Source: Candidatus Fermentithermobacillaceae bacterium (GTDB lineage: Bacteria; Bacillota; Sulfobacillia; Fermentithermobacillales; Fermentithermobacillaceae). Taken from it: a stretch of 64,000 nucleotides of DNA. Under the pieces are notes generated by a model. That model saw nothing but the letters and a program-made list of their open reading frames with translations, was not told the origin of the DNA and made no database searches. Each line of letters begins with the position of its first letter. Within the stretch, counting starts at the first letter, position 1. Positions 145-54,618 of this stretch are shown here, piece after piece. The position numbers and the translations under genes are program-made. The stretch covers positions 1-64,000 of the forward strand of contig DUSI01000032.1 of assembly GCA_012842685.1 (NCBI GenBank). Direction: 5' to 3'.

Positions 145-159
145 GGGCGCCAAAAAGAA

Positions 160-300
160 GTCTTCGGGGCAGGGTGGAATCCCCGACCGGCGGTAATACC
201 CCTCCGCTTTGACCGGTGGAGAGGGTCGAGCCCGACAGCCCCAGCGGTTGAGTCCGGTGAGATCCCGGCGCCGACGGTAACAGTCCGAATGGGAGGAGAC
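160..300 (+). promoter_or_regulatory. FMN riboswitch (RFN element)
   Basis: The conserved RFN blocks occur in order: TCTTCGGGGCAGGGTGGAAT (161-180), CCCGACCGGCGGTAAT from about 182, the variable arm, then GATCCCGGCGCCGACGGTAA (271-290) and the closing AGTCCGAATGGGAGGAG. These match the FMN aptamer of Bacillus ribD and ribU leaders. The outer P1 helix can form between GTCTTC (160-165) and GGAGAC (295-300). The ribU Shine-Dalgarno GGAGG (292-296) sits on the 3' strand of P1, so FMN binding would directly mask the ribosome site. No terminator is seen between aptamer and gene, so translational control is inferred. Confidence 0.93.
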
Positions 301-306
301 TTAACG

Positions 307-43217: not shown

Positions 43218-45308
43218 ATGGAAAAGCAAAAGAGACCGCTTGCGTCCCGGGATCTCTGGTCCTTGAGGTTCACGGGAGACCCGGAGCTCTCTCCTTCTGG
43301 GAATGAGCTGGTATGGGTCGAGACGTGGATAAACGCAGAGAAGAACATCTATGAGTCGGCAATCTACATTTCGCGGCGAGACGAGTCTGGCAAGTTCGGG
43401 CCTCCCTCCCGCCTAACCTACGGGAAAAAACCAAATGGAGACGGCGCGATGGATTCCTCGCCCAGGTTTTCGCCGGACGGCAAGTACCTGGCTTTCACCT
43501 CAAACCGGTCGGGGAAAACCCAGCTATACCTCCTGAACATGGAAGAAGGAGGCGAGGCGCGCCAGGTCACCAACTTGGAAGACGGCCTCTCCCAGTTCAC
43601 GTGGTCGCCGGATTCCAAGCGCATAGCCTTCTGCTCGAGAGAACCCAAGCCCAAGAAGGAGACAAAACCGGATGAGATAGACACTTCCAAGGACGTAACC
43701 GTCATAACCCACCTACGCTACAAGATGAACGGCGTACCCGGGGTCGTCGACCCGAGACCGGTACACATCTACACCGTGGAGATCCAGACCGGGGAGATCC
43801 GGCAGGTTACGACCGGCGATTTCCACGACATGGCCCCCGCCTTCTCTCCCGACGGCAAGAGGATCGCCTTCGTCTCGTGCCGGGAACCCGATAGGGAGCT
43901 CAGGATGGTCCCCGACCTCTGGGTAGTCCCGGCCGAAGGAGGCGAAGCCGTAAGGTACACCTTTGGGAAGGGTCCCGTGAGCTCTCCCGTCTTCTCGCCC
44001 GACGGGAAGTGGATCGCTGTCTTGGGCCACGAGCAAGGTGAGAGCGGCACCGCCAATATCGAGGTCATGGTGGTACCCGCCGAGGGCGGGGACGTCGTAC
44101 ACCTCTGGGACATAGACAGGAGCGTCGGTTCGGGGCTCGGATCGGATTCCAGATGGGACAGCGGCCGCTCGGGCCCCTACTGGTCGCGAGACAGCAAGAC
44201 CCTGTACTTCATCCTCACAGACAAGCGGGTCTCCGGGATCTACAAGACCTCCTTGGACAACCCGCACGTGGAGCTCGTGGCGGGTGCGGTACCGGGGAAC
44301 CTGAACTACTGCGGCAAGTTCCCGCCGGTCTGCAACTCCTTTGCCATGAAGGAGCTTTCAAACGGAAACCTGCTCTTCGCCATAAACGGGAACTCGCCCG
44401 TAAACCCGGGCGATATCTTCGCCGTAGAAATACCCGGCCCGGTCTGCGGCCCCGTGAACGAATCCTGCCCGCTCCAGCAAATCACGGCCGTAAACGAAGG
44501 GCTGCTTTCGGAGGTCTTCCTGATCACTCCCGAACCCTTCACCTTCCACTCCACCGACGGGCTCGAGCTGGACGGGTGGATGATGAAGCCGGCGAACTTC
44601 GAAGAAGGCAAGAAGTATCCTGCCATCATACAGATCCACGGCGGACCCCACTCGGCCTACGGCGAAGCCTTCTTCTTCGAGTTCCAGCTCCTCTGCTCCA
44701 AGGGGTTCGGGGTATTCTACTGCAACCCGCGCGGGAGCTCCGGCTACGGCAAGAAGTTCGCCGACGGGGTGATAGGCGACTGGGGCGGCATGGACTACCA
44801 GGACATCATGTCCCTGAAGCGCTACGTGGATAAGGTGCCCTGGGTCCAGACGGACAAGATCGGCGTCACCGGAGGAAGCTACGGCGGCTACATGGTCAAC
44901 TGGATAGTCGGGCACACCGACGAGTTCGCCGCGGCCGTCACCCAGCGGAGCATCTCCAACATGTACACCAAGTACGGGGTCTCGGACATCGGCTGGTTCG
45001 GGAACAAGAGGGGCTTCGGCGGAAGGGACCTCTGGGACAGCGAAGATTTCATCATGGAGCGCTCGCCCATCAGGTACGCGCCGCGGGTGAACACACCCAT
45101 CCTCATAATCCACTCGGATCAGGACTACCGGTGCCCGCTGGAGCAGGCGGAGCAGTGGTACGTGGCCCTCAAGAGGCTGGGCAAGACGGTGGAGTTCGTG
45201 AAGTTCACCGGCGAAAACCACGAGCTCTCCCGCTCGGGCAAACCCTGGAACAGGGTCGAAAGGCTGGACCACATACTCCGGTGGTTCGAGAAGTACCTCA
45301 AGGGATAA
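43218..45308 (+). CDS. S9 family acylaminoacyl-peptidase/prolyl oligopeptidase
   Basis: 696 residues. The N-terminal half is a TolB-like beta-propeller with SPDGK repeats (FSPDGKYLAF, FSPDGKRIAFVS, FSPDGKWIAVLG). The C-terminal alpha/beta-hydrolase has nucleophile Ser554 in GGSYGGYMVNW, Asp636 in HSDQDYRCP and His668 in ENHELS. The oxyanion segment is HGGPHSAYGEAFF. No signal peptide, so a cytosolic peptidase that trims acylated or short peptides is likely. GGGAGG precedes ATG 43218. A terminator follows 17 nt after the stop. Confidence 0.93.
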   Translation: MEKQKRPLASRDLWSLRFTGDPELSPSGNELVWVETWINAEKNIYESAIYISRRDESGKFGPPSRLTYGKKPNGDGAMDSSPRFSPDGKYLAFTSNRSGKTQLYLLNMEEGGEARQVTNLEDGLSQFTWSPDSKRIAFCSREPKPKKETKPDEIDTSKDVTVITHLRYKMNGVPGVVDPRPVHIYTVEIQTGEIRQVTTGDFHDMAPAFSPDGKRIAFVSCREPDRELRMVPDLWVVPAEGGEAVRYTFGKGPVSSPVFSPDGKWIAVLGHEQGESGTANIEVMVVPAEGGDVVHLWDIDRSVGSGLGSDSRWDSGRSGPYWSRDSKTLYFILTDKRVSGIYKTSLDNPHVELVAGAVPGNLNYCGKFPPVCNSFAMKELSNGNLLFAINGNSPVNPGDIFAVEIPGPVCGPVNESCPLQQITAVNEGLLSEVFLITPEPFTFHSTDGLELDGWMMKPANFEEGKKYPAIIQIHGGPHSAYGEAFFFEFQLLCSKGFGVFYCNPRGSSGYGKKFADGVIGDWGGMDYQDIMSLKRYVDKVPWVQTDKIGVTGGSYGGYMVNWIVGHTDEFAAAVTQRSISNMYTKYGVSDIGWFGNKRGFGGRDLWDSEDFIMERSPIRYAPRVNTPILIIHSDQDYRCPLEQAEQWYVALKRLGKTVEFVKFTGENHELSRSGKPWNRVERLDHILRWFEKYLKG

Positions 45309-45324
45309 CCCCGTGACACAAGTG

Positions 45325-45359
45325 GGACCGGCAGTACCCGTGCGGGCTGCCGGTCCTTT
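45325..45359 (+). terminator. Terminator after the S9 peptidase
   Basis: GGACCGGCAG (45325-45334) and CTGCCGGTCC (45347-45356) form a perfect 10-bp stem with a 12-nt loop, followed by TTT. Closes the S9 peptidase unit. Confidence 0.75.
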
Positions 45360-45418
45360 GCATTCGGTCACGGATTCGTGCTTTTCCGGGACTCGCGGCG
45401 GCCATCGCCACCGGGAGG

Positions 45419-47152
45419 TTATCTCGCCGCCGCCTGCTTCTTCCTGAAGATGTCCAGTATCCTCTCTATCCGGATCTCTTCGGGGATGGGTTTTCGCGTC
45501 TTAGGATCGATTGCCACGCAGGCCCCGTCGACCATAGAGGTGACGATCTCCCCACAGGCGCTCGGGTTCCCTTTGAGATGGGGCGCATCGAGTATCCCGA
45601 GCGCGATGGCGGTGGAAAGGGTCACGGGATCCGCGAACGGGTCGGGCCCGATCTCGAAATATCCCTCCCGTTTAGGCACCGGTATGGCCCCTTCCATGAG
45701 GAGCCTGTGGACTTCGGCTATCCCGGCGAGGAGGACCATCGCGTCCGTGACCAGCCGTTCACGCCTGGCGATAACCCTCTCGTCCAGAGCCAGATCGGGC
45801 ATGCCTTCCAGGCACAACCGGATAGCGCCGCGGGCGATCTTGCAGCTCTCGATCACCTCTTCTGCGCTGGCCAGGTGATCCGCCTCGCAATAACCAACCA
45901 CGTGTACGATGTGGGGCTTCACCGCCATAGAGACCGTCGTGGACAGGGCCAGATGGCCTTTGGCCTGGTCCAGGTCGACCGGGAAGCTGGCGAGCCCTGC
46001 CCGCACCTGCCGGTACACTTTGAAGTCATCTCCGGCAAGGGATTCTACGAGCTTGATTTTCGCAAGCATCTTGCCCAGGTCCATGACCGGGCTCGTGCCC
46101 GGCGGCGTGTTGAACATAAGCTGGGCGACGTACTCTCTCACGCCTGCCTTCTTTGCGTTGTAAGCCGCAAGGTACGCCGCGGCGACCGCAACCACGTCGG
46201 GCGCGTCCCTGAGGCTCCAGTGATGGGCCTCGTTCACTTCGACCGGTATGCCCCTTTGGGCGTGCCAGGCCATGAGCTCCTGACCTTCGGCGATGGACTG
46301 CACGACAGGCCTGGGCCCCCGGCCGTCCAGGACGTTGTACCAGCAAAGGGGAATAGCCGCCCATGCGTTCTTTATCGTGCTCGCGAGGAGCTCCGCGAAA
46401 CGGAAGACGTCCCGGGTGCCGCTATAGCAGCGCATGAGAGGGTAGTTCCCCGTCCTCGAAGCAGCGTAGAGCTTTTCAAAATCCTCCCTCGACCGCACCG
46501 CGGTCCCCCCGGATCCGTCCTGGTCGTGGTCCATCTCTTCGGGGCGGAAGAAGCTCTCCTGGGCGTTTTGGTCGGGGCCCAAAGAGATAACGTCCAACAC
46601 GCCTGACCCGGCTATCCTCTTTATGCCTTCCGCCGTCTCGTCCACAGACGGAAGGCCGAAGTGGTGCCTGAGGATCGGGTAAGGCTGCTTCCATTCGATC
46701 CTCTCGCCAAGCCTATCCGGGTACCGGGATATCTCTTTGAGGACCGGCTTCCCCCGCAGGTAGGCTATTATCTCATCTATGTCTTCCTTCCCTGAGAAGA
46801 CGGCATCAAAGCCTCCCTCTTCTCTGGCCACTTGGGCCACAGGAGGAGTGCCGCCTAAGAGGAGTTTCACCGAACAGCCCCTTTTCTCCAGGGCAGACTT
46901 CAGCCTCCTTATGAGGTTTCTAGCCGCCTCCGGGTCGAGGCGGTAACCGACCGCCAGGTAATCCACTTTATTGGCTTTGGCCATGGCCGCAAGGTCCTCA
47001 GGCGAGACGGCGGTCCCTGCGAACTCCGCACGGTACCCCTGACTTTCGGCGAGCCTCAGGAAACTCAGGACACCAGCCACATGGACGCAATCGCCCATAG
47101 ATGCGCCCAATATCTTCTTGCCCGCTCGGGGCCTAATTTCGTTCACTGTCAT
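45419..47152 (-). CDS. Cobalamin-binding mutase-like enzyme (MutE-like barrel)
   Basis: About 577 residues. The N-terminal 120 residues look like a B12-binding Rossmann domain: ILGASMGDCVHVAGVLSFLR (a DxxHxxG variant of the base-off DxHxxG motif), GTAVSPEDLAA and VKLLLGGTPP (GG motif). Residues about 170-560 resemble the glutamate-mutase E type TIM barrel (VVQSIAEGQELMAWHAQRG, YVAQLMFNTPPGTSP, HIVHVVGYCEADHLASAEEV). A carbon-skeleton rearrangement or a cobalamin-dependent transfer is likely; the substrate is unknown. The start ATG 47152 overlaps the opine-dehydrogenase stop (ATGA) with GGAGGTG upstream. It is the last gene of the c-di-AMP-riboswitch operon. Confidence 0.65.
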   Translation of the reverse strand: MTVNEIRPRAGKKILGASMGDCVHVAGVLSFLRLAESQGYRAEFAGTAVSPEDLAAMAKANKVDYLAVGYRLDPEAARNLIRRLKSALEKRGCSVKLLLGGTPPVAQVAREEGGFDAVFSGKEDIDEIIAYLRGKPVLKEISRYPDRLGERIEWKQPYPILRHHFGLPSVDETAEGIKRIAGSGVLDVISLGPDQNAQESFFRPEEMDHDQDGSGGTAVRSREDFEKLYAASRTGNYPLMRCYSGTRDVFRFAELLASTIKNAWAAIPLCWYNVLDGRGPRPVVQSIAEGQELMAWHAQRGIPVEVNEAHHWSLRDAPDVVAVAAAYLAAYNAKKAGVREYVAQLMFNTPPGTSPVMDLGKMLAKIKLVESLAGDDFKVYRQVRAGLASFPVDLDQAKGHLALSTTVSMAVKPHIVHVVGYCEADHLASAEEVIESCKIARGAIRLCLEGMPDLALDERVIARRERLVTDAMVLLAGIAEVHRLLMEGAIPVPKREGYFEIGPDPFADPVTLSTAIALGILDAPHLKGNPSACGEIVTSMVDGACVAIDPKTRKPIPEEIRIERILDIFRKKQAAAR

Positions 47153-48273
47153 CTCCAGCACACCTCCTGGACCACGTGTTCGATGAGTTCACGGGCCGAA
47201 AGGCCCGCAATCCCCATGCTCTCTGCGGTCCGGCCCGTAGTCATGTAGTCTTCGCCCATGAGGGCGGAAGCCATGTCCACCGCTGCCCGGATCACGGGGA
47301 CATCCACCCCTGCGATCTCCGCCAGGGCCAGCATCGGGACGAGGCTGAAGGGGACATCTTCCGTGATATAGCGACATTCAATCGTGTCCGGAGCCACTAT
47401 CCCGCGGTAGGCTTTGTTGGCCCGTATGGCTTCGTAAAGGTTCTCCGCCTTTATGCCGTAGCTCTCCCCGAGCCACTCCAGGGCTCCCCTGGCGGGTACG
47501 CCCAAAGCACTCGCGATGGCCAGCCGCTCGCGGTCGAGGGCTTCCAGGACCGAAGCCACTCGCGGTGAGATGCCCTCGGTGTAATGCTCAAAAGGTAGGG
47601 ACGAGTCTACCCTCGCTGCGTTCAGAAGGGTAGGGACGGGGTGGAACACCGCGCCCATGTTGTCAAGGCTCGTGACCATGACGTTTTCTACCGGCACGAA
47701 CTGGGGAAACACGGGCTTCAAGGCTCTTAGCACCTGCATGATCCTCGCGGCCGGAAGGGCGGCTATGCTTACCGACTTCTTTATCCCGAACACGCGGGAA
47801 CGCCCGGGCCCCACTGTCCTGCTGGCGTACACGAAGGTGTTGGTCTCGGCCACGGTAACAGAAGCGCGGCAACCTTCCCTCAGCAAGGTCGCGCGGAAGG
47901 CCAGGGCCCCTCCCGTCCTCCCGGGGTTTAGGACCACGATCTGGCCATCCCGCAGGTAAGGCGCCATGAGACGGGCCACGGCCTCGTGCCCTGAAGCCGG
48001 CACCGTCACCATTATCACGGGGACGCCTTTCACGGCTTCTTCCATATCGGTCGTGACCTTGCTTGGCGCGGCCACGCCTCTTATTTCACCTTCGAGGGAT
48101 ATGCCCCCGCACGACTCTATTTCCTCGATGGTTTTCCCAGACCTGTTCCACAGGTTTACGCCGTACCCCCTAAGGGCCAGGTAACCTGCCATGGCTACAC
48201 CGCCGTTCCCGGCGCCTATCACGGCGAAGTCCCCGTTCTCTAGTCCAGCGTGCTCTCTTAGCTCTTCTGCCAT
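47149..48273 (-). CDS. Opine/octopine dehydrogenase-family NAD(P) enzyme
   Basis: 374 residues. The N-terminal Rossmann fold (FAVIGAGNGGVAMAGYLALRG) and the C-terminal domain with the opine-dehydrogenase His/Asp region (NMGAVFHPVPTLLNA, about 205-220) fit the NAD/NADP octopine/nopaline dehydrogenase family. Such enzymes reductively join an amino acid amine to an alpha-keto acid, or act as related imine reductases; staphylopine-type enzymes belong to the same fold. The start is ATG 48273 with AGGAGG 6 nt upstream. It lies between the ATP-grasp ligase and the cobalamin enzyme, coupled to the latter. Confidence 0.8.
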   Translation of the reverse strand: MAEELREHAGLENGDFAVIGAGNGGVAMAGYLALRGYGVNLWNRSGKTIEEIESCGGISLEGEIRGVAAPSKVTTDMEEAVKGVPVIMVTVPASGHEAVARLMAPYLRDGQIVVLNPGRTGGALAFRATLLREGCRASVTVAETNTFVYASRTVGPGRSRVFGIKKSVSIAALPAARIMQVLRALKPVFPQFVPVENVMVTSLDNMGAVFHPVPTLLNAARVDSSLPFEHYTEGISPRVASVLEALDRERLAIASALGVPARGALEWLGESYGIKAENLYEAIRANKAYRGIVAPDTIECRYITEDVPFSLVPMLALAEIAGVDVPVIRAAVDMASALMGEDYMTTGRTAESMGIAGLSARELIEHVVQEVCWR

Positions 48274-48321
48274 CGGGAGACCTCCTTTCTCTCGTTTCAA
48301 AGGAACAATCCTGCATGGGGC

Positions 48322-49338
48322 TTAAGCGCCTCTCGCCGCGCCGTCTGCCTTAGGAGCCCCGGGTAGTTCCCGGCTCCGGGCTCTCTCCGCGGCGGCTTGG
48401 ATGAGAGTCTTCACGATGTCCGTGTAAGTAAGCCCCGCCTTTGCGGCTATGCGTGGGTACTCGCTGTAATCCGGGATGAGACCGGGAAGGGTGTTGACCT
48501 CAAGCACGTAGGGAACCCCGCCATCGCTCAGGCGTATGTCAACCCTCGCAAAGTCCCTGCAGCCGACGGCAGCCGCGGACCTCACGGCCGCGTCTTGCAA
48601 GAGGCGAGCGAGGTCCTCAGGTACCTCGGCCGGACATTTCACGGTCACGCTGTCCAGCCTCTTGACTTTGTAGGAGAAAAGGTCCCCTTCTTTGAAGATG
48701 ATCTCCTGGACGGGAAGGGCCCTGAGACTTGGATATCCCAGGAGCGCAACGGTGAATTCCCTTCCCGGAATGAACTCTTCGATCAAGACCGGCGGGCCAA
48801 ACTCGTCGATCAGCCTCGCTGCCACGCGCGCCGCACCTTCCGCGGTGGAAACCACGCTTTCCTCGGTGATGCCAAGGCTCGCACCCTCCGCGGCAGGCTT
48901 GACGATGGCGGGGAGCTTGAGACCCCGGGTGAGGTCCCGGCGCAGATCTTCCTTCCCGAGGACCACCTGGAATGGAGGGGTCCTTATGCCCGCGGCCTCC
49001 ATGGCCATCTTGGCGACGTGCTTGTAGAGCCCCACTACGTGGCCATGGGACGAGGCTCCCGTGAATGGGATCCCGCTCATCTCCAAGATCGCCGCTATGT
49101 TCGCCTGGTCTTTCTTGGACCGGTACCCTGTAGCGAGGTTGAGGATCACATCTGGCCCCAAGGTCTCGATCTCCAGGAGCATGGCCGGGCCCGCTTCCAC
49201 CACGCTCGCGTCATGGCCCAGCTCCTCAAGGCTCTTCAGCACGGCATCCCTCGTCCTCACCGTGTGTTCGGCGGCATGAGGATCCTGCCGGTTCAGAGGA
49301 CAGTCGCCGGTTGGAGCGGTTACGACGCATACGCGCAT
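48322..49338 (-). CDS. Ddl-like ATP-grasp ligase
   Basis: 338 residues. The ATP-grasp core is intact: LPAIVKPAAEGASLGI (nucleotide lysine), PVLIEEFIPGREFTVALLG and FARVDIRLSDGGVPYVLEVN (metal-binding Glu/Asn). It aligns with D-Ala-D-Ala ligase, but where Ddl has the HGxxGEDG substrate loop this protein has LATGYRSKKDQANIAA, so the N-terminal acceptor pocket differs. It most probably ligates an amino acid or amino acid derivative by acyl phosphate. ATG 49338 has GGGAGG 7 nt upstream. It is the first gene after the c-di-AMP riboswitch and is followed after 48 nt by the opine-dehydrogenase-like gene. Confidence 0.8.
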   Translation of the reverse strand: MRVCVVTAPTGDCPLNRQDPHAAEHTVRTRDAVLKSLEELGHDASVVEAGPAMLLEIETLGPDVILNLATGYRSKKDQANIAAILEMSGIPFTGASSHGHVVGLYKHVAKMAMEAAGIRTPPFQVVLGKEDLRRDLTRGLKLPAIVKPAAEGASLGITEESVVSTAEGAARVAARLIDEFGPPVLIEEFIPGREFTVALLGYPSLRALPVQEIIFKEGDLFSYKVKRLDSVTVKCPAEVPEDLARLLQDAAVRSAAAVGCRDFARVDIRLSDGGVPYVLEVNTLPGLIPDYSEYPRIAAKAGLTYTDIVKTLIQAAAERARSRELPGAPKADGAARGA

Positions 49339-49371
49339 GGCTCTCCCTCCCTGTGAGATTCAGGCAGTGGG

Positions 49372-49549
49372 AAAAAAGGCACATAGAAACCCAGGCCTCT
49401 GGCACAACAAGGCATAAGCCCACGCCATAAGGCGCATTCCCAGTGAGTGCAGGGCGTGTTTTCCGGAGGCTTAAGGCCCCCGCGTGCGAAAACTGGCCTT
49501 TGGCCGGTGCCTTAGGGGAAGACGAAGAGCTGCGGTAGGGCGCAGCAAC
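49372..49549 (-). promoter_or_regulatory. Expression platform of the c-di-AMP riboswitch
   Basis: No gene is seen here. On the minus strand GGAAGACG (49562-49555, the aptamer's 3' end) can pair with CGTCTTCC (49524-49517), enclosing a perfect GCTGCG/CGCAGC inner stem. This structure would compete with aptamer closing helix P1. Further down are a GGCC-AAA-GGCC stem followed by AGTTTT (about 49506-49488) and a weak stem before U6 (A6 at 49372-49377 on the plus strand) about 35 nt before the start codon; either may be the terminator. The on/off direction is not decided by sequence alone. Confidence 0.55.
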
Positions 49550-49694
49550 GTAGCCGTCTTCCTTTTCCACGCTTACGAGGTTAGCTGACGGGCTCGGGCC
49601 GAAAAGGTGTGGCCCTACGCTTTCGCGATTAGCCCCAGAGATCTGGGTCCCCCGCTCTCCCCGTCAGGGGAGATTCAGCGATCAGGCGTGCTAC
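49550..49694 (-). promoter_or_regulatory. c-di-AMP riboswitch (ydaO/yuaA type)
   Basis: Minus-strand blocks match the ydaO consensus in order: ATCGCTGAATC, GCGGGGGACCCA, GGGGCTAATCGCGAAAGCGT, AGGG, CCCGAGCCCGTCAGCTAACC and TCGTAAGCGT. Outer helix P1 forms from GTAGC (49694-49690) and GCTAC (49554-49550). The element senses cyclic di-AMP and normally controls potassium and osmolyte transport or cell-wall genes in Bacillota (established). Here it leads an ATP-grasp, opine-dehydrogenase, cobalamin-enzyme operon. Confidence 0.93.
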
Positions 49695-49717
49695 CCACTG
49701 CTCAACGTGGGTTTTAT

Positions 49718-49745
49718 ATTATCGCTACTTTCCAGCGAATGTCAA
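49718..49745 (-). promoter_or_regulatory. Promoter of the c-di-AMP riboswitch operon
   Basis: Minus strand: TTGACA (49745-49740), a 16-bp spacer, GATAAT (49723-49718). The -35 is a perfect match and the -10 a 5/6 match. It overlaps the stop codon of the MFS gene. RNA would start near 49711, then form a CCCAC/GTGGG hairpin and the aptamer, giving a leader of about 370 nt. Confidence 0.8.
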
Positions 49746-50992
49746 GCGGCTGCTTGTCCTCTAATCTCCCGGTCGTAGTGCCTGAAGGCCCGCCAGTACA
49801 CGATGCTTGCGAGGCAGTACAATACGGCGGTGAAGAAGTACGGGATCTCGTAGCTCCAGTTCTCCATGATGTAGCCTGCCACGGCGGCGCTCGCCGACCT
49901 CGTGAGGTTGTCGGCGATGCGCATGAGGCTGGACATCTTTCCCCTCTTCTCCGGGCCGACTATCTCCATGGAAAATCCCGAGGCTACCGGGTTCGACATG
50001 TTCATGAGGGCTGACCTCATGAAGAGGGCAAAGGAGACGAGGTATATGTTGGGCGGCAGGGCGATAAGGAGCAGAAACGGTATGGACGCAAGCTGCGTCC
50101 CGACTACCGTCGGGATCCTGCCGTATCTCGTCGCCAGGACCGGAGCGATCAGACCAGCGACCGCGGTGGCACCATTGGTGAGGGACAATATGAGACCCAC
50201 CAGGTCGGTGGTGATCTCCAGCTTCTTGGTGAGGAAAACGTTGAAGTAGGGGACAACCATCCCCGCCCCAAAACCGATCAAGATGTTGTAGAAGAGTAGG
50301 TTCCATACCTCCCGGATACGTGCCGTCTCGAGCAGCTCTCGTACCTCGTCTTTGGCGGCACCGGCCAGCTCTCCCATTCGAGCCTTGGACTTCTTTTCCT
50401 CCTGTATCTTGAAGGTGGGCGTGACGCCCAAGAGGGTAACCAGGGAGAAAACGGCTAGGGAAATCCTGTACGACCTCACCAGGCCGAGAGAGCGGAACCT
50501 TTCGGGCAGGAAACCTCCAAGGAGGCTCCCTACCATGTTCACCCCCATGGACAGGGAGAAGTTCACACCGAAAAGCCTTTGCCTGTCTTCGGGCGTGCTC
50601 GACTCCGCGAGAAGGGGCGCTCCCGAGGTCATCTGGCAGGCTTCGGCGCATCCTAGGATACACGAGAAAAGCACCATCAGGGCCGGCGAAGAAGAAACCG
50701 CCATCCCCAGGTAACCCACGGTCGTGAGGAGCCCGGCGGCTATGAGGACCGGCCTCCTGCCCACCCTGTCCGAGAACATCCCGGCAGGGATGGAAAAGGC
50801 GGCAGCCGACAGCATCCTGGCCGAGAGGATGGTACCCAGGACCGTCTCGCTGAAGCCGAGGGACAGTATGTAGAGCCCCTGGATCACTCCGAACGCGCCC
50901 TTGGCGAGGGCGCTCATGGACACTGACTGGAGATACAAATAGGCGTTCCGCTGAAACCTCATAACATGGACTAATACTACATCGCACTTCAA
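49742..50992 (-). CDS. MFS transporter
   Basis: About 416 residues, twelve membrane helices. Motif A between helices 2 and 3 is GMFSDRVGRRPVL; a second-half equivalent is VLATRYGRIPTVV. Central loop 'QEEKKSKARMGELAGAAKDE' is charged and helical. Drug/H+ antiporter-like, substrate unknown. The start is unclear: TTG 50992 has AAGGGAT nearby, while ATG 50962 lacks a ribosome site. Divergent from the HD-GYP gene. Its stop codon lies within the -35 of the downstream riboswitch operon. Confidence 0.85.
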   Translation of the reverse strand: MKCDVVLVHVMRFQRNAYLYLQSVSMSALAKGAFGVIQGLYILSLGFSETVLGTILSARMLSAAAFSIPAGMFSDRVGRRPVLIAAGLLTTVGYLGMAVSSSPALMVLFSCILGCAEACQMTSGAPLLAESSTPEDRQRLFGVNFSLSMGVNMVGSLLGGFLPERFRSLGLVRSYRISLAVFSLVTLLGVTPTFKIQEEKKSKARMGELAGAAKDEVRELLETARIREVWNLLFYNILIGFGAGMVVPYFNVFLTKKLEITTDLVGLILSLTNGATAVAGLIAPVLATRYGRIPTVVGTQLASIPFLLLIALPPNIYLVSFALFMRSALMNMSNPVASGFSMEIVGPEKRGKMSSLMRIADNLTRSASAAVAGYIMENWSYEIPYFFTAVLYCLASIVYWRAFRHYDREIRGQAAA

Positions 50993-51112
50993 TATCCCTT
51001 TCGCCTGCGCATCTTAATCGCCATCTCTCGGTTTCGATAACCATACTGGGCAATCGCAGCCGATAGACCATAGAACGCTGCGTTCTTCGCGCATGAGAAG
51101 AGAGGAGAACAA

Positions 51113-52351: not shown

Positions 52352-53533
52352 CTACTTGATAACTCCGAGAGCCTTGCCGACGGCTTCGAATTTCTCGAGC
52401 GCGAAATCCAGGTCGCTCTTTTCGTGGGCCGCCGACAGCATGCAGCGGATGCGCGCCTTGCCTCTCGGGACCGTCGGATATGTAATACCCGAAGCGAAGA
52501 TCCCTTCTTCGTAAAGCCGCTTGGAGAACTCGCCCGCTATCTTTTCGTCGCCCAGCATGACGGGGGTTATCGGGGTCTGGGTCTTGCCCGTGTCAAACCC
52601 GATCTTCTTTAGGCCCTCCTGGAAGTAACGGGCGTTGTCCCAGAGCTTCCTAACCAGCGCGTCGGACTTAAGGAGCACGTCTACGGCGGCTATGGCCGCA
52701 GCCGTGTCGGGAGGTGTAAGGCCCGTGCTGAACAGGAACGGCCTGCCTCTCTGTTTGAGGTAGTCGATCAGGACCTCTTCTCCTGTCACATATCCTCCCA
52801 TGACGCCGAAAGCCTTGGAAAGGGTGCCGACTTCGATGTCAACCCTGCCCTCAAGCTTGAAGTAGTTGACGATCCCGCGGCCGCTGTCCCCCAGGACTCC
52901 CTCACCGTGGGCGTCGTCTACCATGACCATGGCTCCGAACTCATCGGCGACATCGCATATCTCCGGAAGCGGAGCTATGTCTCCGTCCATGCTGAAGACA
53001 CCGTCGGTCACGATCAGCATGCGGCGGGCACTATCCTTATGCTCCAAGATCTTGGCCCTGAGATCTTCTACGTCGTTGTGGGCGTATCTCACCACTTGCG
53101 CCTTGGAGAGCCTGCAGCCGTCGATGATGCTTGCGTGGTTGAGCTCGTCTGAGAAGATCACGTCGCCCTGTCCGGTGATGGTTGGGATCACTACGGTATT
53201 GGCGGTGAAACCTGCCTGGACGACAATGCACGCCGGGGCGTGTTTGAACTCGGCGAGCTTTTTCTCGAGGGCTATGTGGAGCTCCTGGGTACCCGAGATC
53301 GTGCGAACGGCGCCCGGACCGACTCCCCATTCGTCAATGGCCTTCTTGGCGGCTTCCTTGAGCTCGGGCATGTTGGCAAGTCCCAGGTAGTTGTTGGAGC
53401 AGAGGTTTAGGACTTTCCTGCCGTCGACCACAAACCAGGCGCCCTGGGGCCCGCTTATGGTCCGGATGTGGTTGTAAAGCCCTGCCTCCTTGAGGTTCTT
53501 AATCTCCTCACGTAGGAAATCCAGTTTAGACAT
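52352..53533 (-). CDS. kbl: Glycine C-acetyltransferase (2-amino-3-ketobutyrate CoA ligase)
   Basis: 393 residues, alpha-oxoamine synthase family. [12 protein letters not shown] near the N-terminus, [25 protein letters not shown] and PLP lysine in [13 protein letters not shown] are present. Converts 2-amino-3-ketobutyrate and CoA to glycine and acetyl-CoA. The start ATG 53533 overlaps the tdh stop by one nt (TAATG), so the pair is translationally coupled and threonine catabolism is the clear role. Confidence 0.96.
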
Positions 53534-54618
53534 TATTTCAACCCCTCCGGATAAAGGATAACCTTACCGCAGTTTCCTTCAGTCATGAGGTCCATCCCTC
53601 GCGCAAAGTCGGCAAGGTCCAGGTGGTGAGTGATGATGGGTTCTACATTGAGCTTGCCCGAACGCAAGAGCTCTCGGGTCATAACCCAGGTATCCCACAT
53701 GCGGCGTCCGGTAATCCCCTGCAGGGTGACTCCGCGCATCACGATATCGTCGGAGAAATTGACGGTAAGCGGCCTGGACGGAAGGCCCAAGAGGGCTATG
53801 CGTCCTCCGGGTCTTACGACCTTCACCATCTGCTGGTAAACAGGCGCCGCTCCGGCCATCTCCAGCACCACGTCGACGCCCACTCCTTTGGTGGCGTCCA
53901 GGATGGCCTGGACGGGATCGTCCTTGAGGCTGTTTATGACCAGGTCGGCCCCCATGGCCCGAGCCAGCTCGAGCCTGTACTCATTGATGTCGCAGGCGAC
54001 CACCCAGGTCCCGCCTACGGCCTTTGCCACCGCAACGGACATGAGTCCTATGGGGCCGCATCCAAAGACGGCGAAAGTCTTTCCGCGGGTTTCGCCCGCC
54101 ATGACCGTGTGGACCGCGTTTCCGAGGGGCTCCTGGACCGACGCGACATGAGGCGGGATCGACGGGTCGTTATACCAGAGATTCTCCTCGGGGACCACAG
54201 CGTACTCGGCGAAGACGCCATCGGTGTCTACCCCGAGAATCCGGGTATTCTGGCAAACGTGTTTTTCGCCCAACATGCACTGGACGCAGAGGCCGCAGAC
54301 GATGTGAGTTTCGGCGGATACGTAGTCGCCCACTTTGGCCTTGAGGCAGCCGCTTCCGAGCTCGACCACTTCTCCGGCAAACTCATGCCCCATTATCCTG
54401 GGGGGCTTTATCCGGTTTTGTGCCCACTCATTCCACACGTAGATATGATGGTCGGTGCCGCAAATGGATGTAGCCTTGATCTTCACGAGGACCTCGCCCG
54501 GCCCCGGTTTCGGCACGGGGATATCCACCAAGACAGCACCGGGAGCAGGATCCTTCTTGAGAACGGCTCTCAACTCAACATCCTCCCTCTCCAATACGAC
54601 TGCGCGCAGGCCGCTCAT
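53533..54618 (-). CDS. tdh: L-threonine 3-dehydrogenase
   Basis: 361 residues, zinc-dependent medium-chain dehydrogenase. Catalytic zinc motifs [10 protein letters not shown] and GHEFAGEV, the structural zinc Cys cluster [15 protein letters not shown], and the NAD-binding [15 protein letters not shown] are all present. It oxidises threonine to 2-amino-3-ketobutyrate for Kbl. The N-terminus has about 20 extra residues before [19 protein letters not shown] 54618 has only a weak ribosome site (GCGAGG). Confidence 0.93.

Follow-up and report, generated by a model that had tools for sequence, protein, structure and literature searches.

A c-di-AMP riboswitch with an opine dehydrogenase and a cobalamin mutase-like protein in a Fermentithermobacillaceae operon, and its recurrence in other lineages

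The window, the whole stretch of DNA analysed here (64,000 nucleotides of contig DUSI01000032.1 from a Candidatus Fermentithermobacillaceae bacterium), contains on its minus strand three co-directional genes packed behind a leader. They code for an ATP-grasp ligase, an opine dehydrogenase (ODH) and a protein with a B12 domain. Gene 1 (48322-49338, 338 aa) is a Ddl-like ATP-grasp ligase (PF07478, 3e-39). Gene 2 (47149-48273, 374 aa, with its ATG at 48273) was assigned by profile (PF02317, 8e-47) and alignment to the Octopine_DH family, and overlaps through an ATGA with gene 3 (45419-47152, 577 aa), in which a B12 domain (PF02310, 7e-10) is fused to a barrel as in adenosylcobalamin (AdoCbl) mutases. 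Domain searches confirmed the gene content given in a first-pass annotation of this DNA, namely a three-gene operon with neither transporter nor hydrolase. The interval that it had assigned (48322-49745) does hold the leader and the first gene, but the operon runs on to 45419.

The leader carries a c-di-AMP (ydaO) riboswitch aptamer at 49555-49690 (-), found as an RF00379 match of 88.8 bits (E 2e-19; gathering score 38) that spans model positions 1-134, the whole model. Aligned with 23 riboswitches from related genomes, the window aptamer retains every position that is invariant among them. The covariance search therefore bears out the ydaO-type aptamer first proposed at 49550-49694, limits that include the outer P1 strand GUAGC (49690-49694, -) and its partner GCUAC (49550-49554), both read by eye. 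This outer pairing is also present in the congeners of the window organism, with a G-U pair in one of them. At the sequence level the identity of the element heading the operon as a c-di-AMP riboswitch is certain, and ligand binding is predicted. It shares with its class the full aptamer, the conserved nucleotides and the position in a leader. The reported targets of ydaO riboswitches are transporters, wall-remodelling and osmotic-shock genes (PMC3766115, PMC7266159), whereas here the genes led are those of enzymes.

Upstream of the aptamer, the promoter region (49716-49745, -) was delimited by a search for promoter-like sites and by comparison with congeners. Between 45000 and 51000 the only such sites were TTGACA-16-GATAAT (11/12; 49745-49718) and the overlapping TTGACA-18-TAATAT (49745-49716), with a score that is weak taken alone, since shuffled sequence yields 1.1 sites on average. 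TTGACA is conserved in three congeners and the -10 box of all three lies at spacing 18, so that the 18 register (TAATAT) is at least as likely as the 16 register. Of the strong TTGACA-16-GATAAT promoter initially described, the conserved TTGACA site stands, while the spacing is open to revision. The -35 box is also where a co-directional MFS gene (49742-50992) ends, and some read-through from it into the operon is possible.

The expression platform or 5' UTR (49339-49554, -) shows no clear terminator of the intrinsic type, which several other lineages do have in their leaders, and the same scan of 45000-51000 found no promoter-like site between the aptamer and the genes. Nothing recognised here thus splits the riboswitch from the operon it was said to control. 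What the leader does contain is a hairpin, GGAAGACG...CGUCUUCC (49517-49562, -), which overlaps the 3' strand of P1 and is a candidate expression-platform switch. It is kept in four congeners, in some of which the inner stem is altered on both sides (by eye), and a longer leader, with this conserved hairpin over P1 and no clear terminator, characterises the genus of the window organism. In Thermoanaerobacter wiegelii, Caldanaerobacter and Thermoanaerobacterium, on the other hand, a strong hairpin followed by a U-run, that is, a terminator, lies between the aptamer and the ODH gene. By eye, the 3' strand of P1 in these three can pair either with the P1 5' strand or with an arm of the terminator. 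In T. wiegelii the stretch that pairs with the terminator arm GCUAUAG overlaps the P1 strand (AAUGCUA/UAGCAUU), again by eye. As far as sequence can tell, the Thermoanaerobacter relatives, with terminator and P1 in competition, have the architecture of an OFF switch responding to c-di-AMP. Control of the operon by c-di-AMP is well supported at the sequence level, and from the relatives we infer repression by c-di-AMP in the window organism.

The ligase encoded by gene 1 shares the ATP-grasp C-domain (PF07478) with D-Ala-D-Ala ligases, but falls far under the NCBIfam Ddl cut-offs. The motif HGxxGEDG, which we take to be the signature of D-Ala-D-Ala ligases, is absent from 16 of 16 operon ligases, gene 1 included, and present in E. 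coli Ddl and in the other, stronger Ddl of the genome (contig C46). Gene 1 was therefore ruled out as the housekeeping Ddl. Gene 2 has both the NAD-binding N domain and the Octopine_DH domain, and its nearest solved structure is 1bg6, N-(1-D-carboxylethyl)-L-norvaline dehydrogenase (CENDH; E 9e-91). PF02317 is common to gene 2, CENDH and octopine dehydrogenase (3c7a), and judging from its family gene 2 would form opines. The operon ODH differs from both known enzymes by its linkage to a B12 enzyme and to a riboswitch and by an invariant Arg119, found in 37 of 37 family members, where 1bg6 has Ala and an unlinked paralogue, the only one examined, has Asp. One may guess that Arg119 binds an acidic substrate.

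In gene 3 Pfam detects only the B12 domain and NCBIfam gives no match. An AlphaFold2 model built from 53 relatives (pLDDT 91.9) found as best PDB folds with Foldseek 6h9e_B and 1cb7_B, both glutamate mutase (E 1.6e-14, probability 1.00), followed by ornithine and lysine aminomutases and methylmalonyl-CoA mutase. The GlmE profile PF06368 does not match the window protein, and two other family members (G055, at 1.1e-7, and G008) are above its cut-off. Glutamate mutase (GlmS plus GlmE) has the B12 domain and the barrel in common with gene 3, and the reactivase GlmL is encoded beside some members of the family. Gene 3, in contrast, has both parts in one chain, headed by the B12 domain, and is about 16% identical, with the substrate residues mostly replaced. 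The cobalamin motif, DxHxxG in glutamate mutase, is CxHxxG in 48 of the 53 members and DxHxxG in the other 5, with His and Gly invariant. In the Clostridium cochlearium structure of glutamate mutase the substrate residues are R66, R100, R149, E171, Y177 and Y181. In a low-confidence profile alignment the family has H, Y, P and D at the positions of R66, R149, E171 and Y181, and keeps Y177 in 52 and R100 in 31 of 53 members. With four of these residues replaced in such an alignment, the substrate may not be glutamate itself, and the assignment of gene 3 as a plain glutamate mutase is weakened. Ornithine 4,5- and lysine 5,6-aminomutase also combine an AdoCbl domain with a barrel, and hold PLP by a lysine of the B12 domain. 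At positions 1-140, in the B12 domain, the 53 members have no lysine that is invariant or close to it, and the assignment to PLP-dependent B12 aminomutases (OraE, KamDE) was rejected. Fold and domain content suggest that gene 3 probably works like glutamate mutase, yet it should not be classed as one. In two genomes, frames of ~1225-1253 aa (G325:C117, G328:C73) match both the mutase and MutL and may be mutase-reactivase fusions.

The mutase family occurs in Bacillota, Armatimonadota, Thorarchaeota and others. We compared the neighbourhoods of 80 loci fetched by the mutase alone (1.14 Mb in total). The ODH gene adjoins the mutase gene in 78 of them (76 upstream, 2 downstream), frequently with the same ATGA overlap. 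Furthermore, among 26 close relatives ODH is present in exactly the 21 that have the mutase and in none of the 5 without it (Fisher p 1.5e-5, a value that ignores the shared ancestry of relatives that are not independent). The ODH-mutase pair is the core of the operon. Around it the accessory genes vary: Ddl-like ligase, asparagine synthetase (for example L087, L101 and L130), GlmL, the AdoCbl-mutase reactivase (L111, L123, L210), dapF-dapL or a V-ATPase operon. In one genome (G024, locus L210) riboswitch, ODH, ligase, thioesterase, GlmL and mutase follow each other in one run, with GlmL at 606 bits against a cut-off of 475. The GlmL-like protein of the window's own genome was considered as a dedicated partner of the mutase and rejected; it sits in an ornithine pathway and scores as Or-4.

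The riboswitch lies directly upstream and on the operon strand in 30 of the 80 loci, from separate lineages and one per locus (the L130 copy is cut by the contig end), and no copy was found elsewhere in the 1.14 Mb. This count comes from a covariance model trained on related riboswitches; several of the loci contributed sites to the training and so match necessarily, but Rfam's own RF00379 model also finds the sites tested among those loci. When the presence of the riboswitch was mapped on the mutase tree, at least 9 changes were needed, 5 of them forced by well-supported branches, so that the riboswitch-operon pairing recurs and is not one inherited block. In addition, in a sample of 299 genomes of the phylum, 17 among the best ~150 RF00379 matches were just upstream of a PF02317 gene against ~0.02 expected, figures that were matched by eye, assume 2500 genes per genome and give an order of magnitude, not a census. 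The initial proposal that here the riboswitch leads metabolic enzymes instead of its usual targets thus gains from a recurrence in distant lineages, which argues that the operon is a real member of the c-di-AMP regulon. In one genome two tandem c-di-AMP riboswitches are found upstream of the ODH-mutase operon (G045:C37:42548-42937, -). Control by c-di-AMP is not universal, because no riboswitch was found in 50 of the 80 loci, and in one clade the ODH-mutase pair instead precedes a V-type ATPase operon. Ten loci (L076, L080, L084, L085, L088, L093, L096, L098, L113 and L115) have the ODH-mutase pair ahead of a V-type ATPase-like operon, whose genes were named by eye, from representatives of clusters and not from profiles, and none of the ten has a c-di-AMP riboswitch.

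That c-di-AMP regulates K+ and solute homeostasis is established (PMC8092236, PMC10243994). The recurrence of its sensor with these enzymes across many anaerobic bacteria suggests an undescribed pathway for an osmotic solute or K+ counter-ion. Our preferred reading, which we hold with even confidence, is that the operon is a biosynthetic unit repressed by c-di-AMP, whose product is an opine-type solute or a counter-ion for K+. At high levels of K+ and c-di-AMP the second messenger would bind the leader, P1 would close and transcription of the enzymes would stop; when both fall, the enzymes would be made. The architecture of this switch was seen in the relatives and is extended to the window. 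The reactions are proposed from the protein families. The opine dehydrogenase would use NAD(P)H to condense an amino acid reductively with a 2-oxo acid. The cobalamin protein would catalyse an adenosylcobalamin radical rearrangement of either the amino acid or the opine, and the product would be capped with an amide by the ATP-grasp ligase, whose place asparagine synthetase takes elsewhere. The product would accumulate most likely as an osmolyte or organic K+ counter-ion, a role that we infer, and a compatible solute is plausible. More tentatively, the product could represent an undescribed class of osmolyte or K+ counter-ion, a rearranged, amide-capped opine made by ODH and a new family of single-chain CxHxxG cobalamin mutases, with c-di-AMP as the off signal for its synthesis in many lineages of anaerobes.

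A catabolic or redox use, rather unlikely in our judgement, would make the operon a fermentation branch in which the B12 mutase rearranges an amino acid and ODH disposes of reducing power, as the opine dehydrogenases of anoxic invertebrates do. The hosts are related to anaerobes and glutamate mutase is itself a fermentation enzyme. Amino-acid fermentation is moreover at home in this genome, because it carries the OraE/Or-4 ornithine pathway. Against this use stand the recurrent control by c-di-AMP and the partners that form amides (ligase, asparagine synthetase); methylaspartate ammonia-lyase was not seen by eye beside the operon in the inspected neighbourhoods.

It is quite unlikely that the operon makes an envelope precursor, with the Ddl-like ligase joining an unusual amino acid or dipeptide destined for peptidoglycan and with c-di-AMP control explained by wall synthesis following turgor. 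Wall-remodelling genes are known under ydaO riboswitches (PMC3766115), the operon does contain such a ligase, and in L112 and G274 the mutase is followed by dapF-dapL, with a dapF-like gene in L090. These dap genes, however, are near few members only, and a ligase on the same strand is found in just 16 of the 80 loci, and 17 of the 30 loci with a riboswitch lack the ligase. Without the Ddl motif that the stronger Ddl of the genome has, the ligase leaves an amino-acid-derived solute or K+ counter-ion as a better fit to the enzymes than a wall building block.

The dehydrogenase alone might belong to the c-di-AMP regulon, with mutase and ligase behind it through operon history. In G274 and G321 the riboswitch leads ODH without the mutase, so the two enzymes need not share one pathway. 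The exact match of ODH and mutase presence in the 26 relatives and their adjacency in nearly all the loci make this very unlikely. In G321 (G321:C11:9000-16500, L211) riboswitch and ODH are accompanied by a class III aminotransferase of the putrescine/acetylornithine type, and the mutase and a second ODH are found elsewhere in the genome with no riboswitch match. Synthesis of a staphylopine-like opine metallophore, which would also combine an opine dehydrogenase with other amino-acid enzymes, is highly improbable given control by c-di-AMP and not by metal, the lack of any recognised nicotianamine-synthase-like gene, exporter or metal importer in the inspected neighbourhoods, and the score of G274 DapF to CntK (27 bits against a cut-off of 300).

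If the biosynthetic reading is true, c-di-AMP, reported mainly for K+/solute transport and wall genes, would also control solute synthesis, and an uncharacterised family of cobalamin enzymes would gain a physiological role. Our search found no literature joining either c-di-AMP or glutamate mutase with opine dehydrogenase; the gene lists of Nelson 2013 and Block 2010 lay outside it, so that the novelty of the riboswitch-ODH association is not established. The system is present in culturable thermophiles, Thermoanaerobacter and Thermoanaerobacterium, where the idea is testable.

The genome of the window organism encodes a diadenylate cyclase, and its two other c-di-AMP riboswitches precede targets that look conventional, as judged by eye an oligopeptide ABC transporter operon and a wall-hydrolase-like gene. 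Elsewhere in the window, adjoining genes at 52352-54618 (-) resemble by eye glycine C-acetyltransferase (Kbl) and threonine dehydrogenase (Tdh). An FMN riboswitch (RF00050, 80.9 bits) is found at 156-304 (+), and the first frame downstream of it reads by eye as the membrane component of an ECF transporter.
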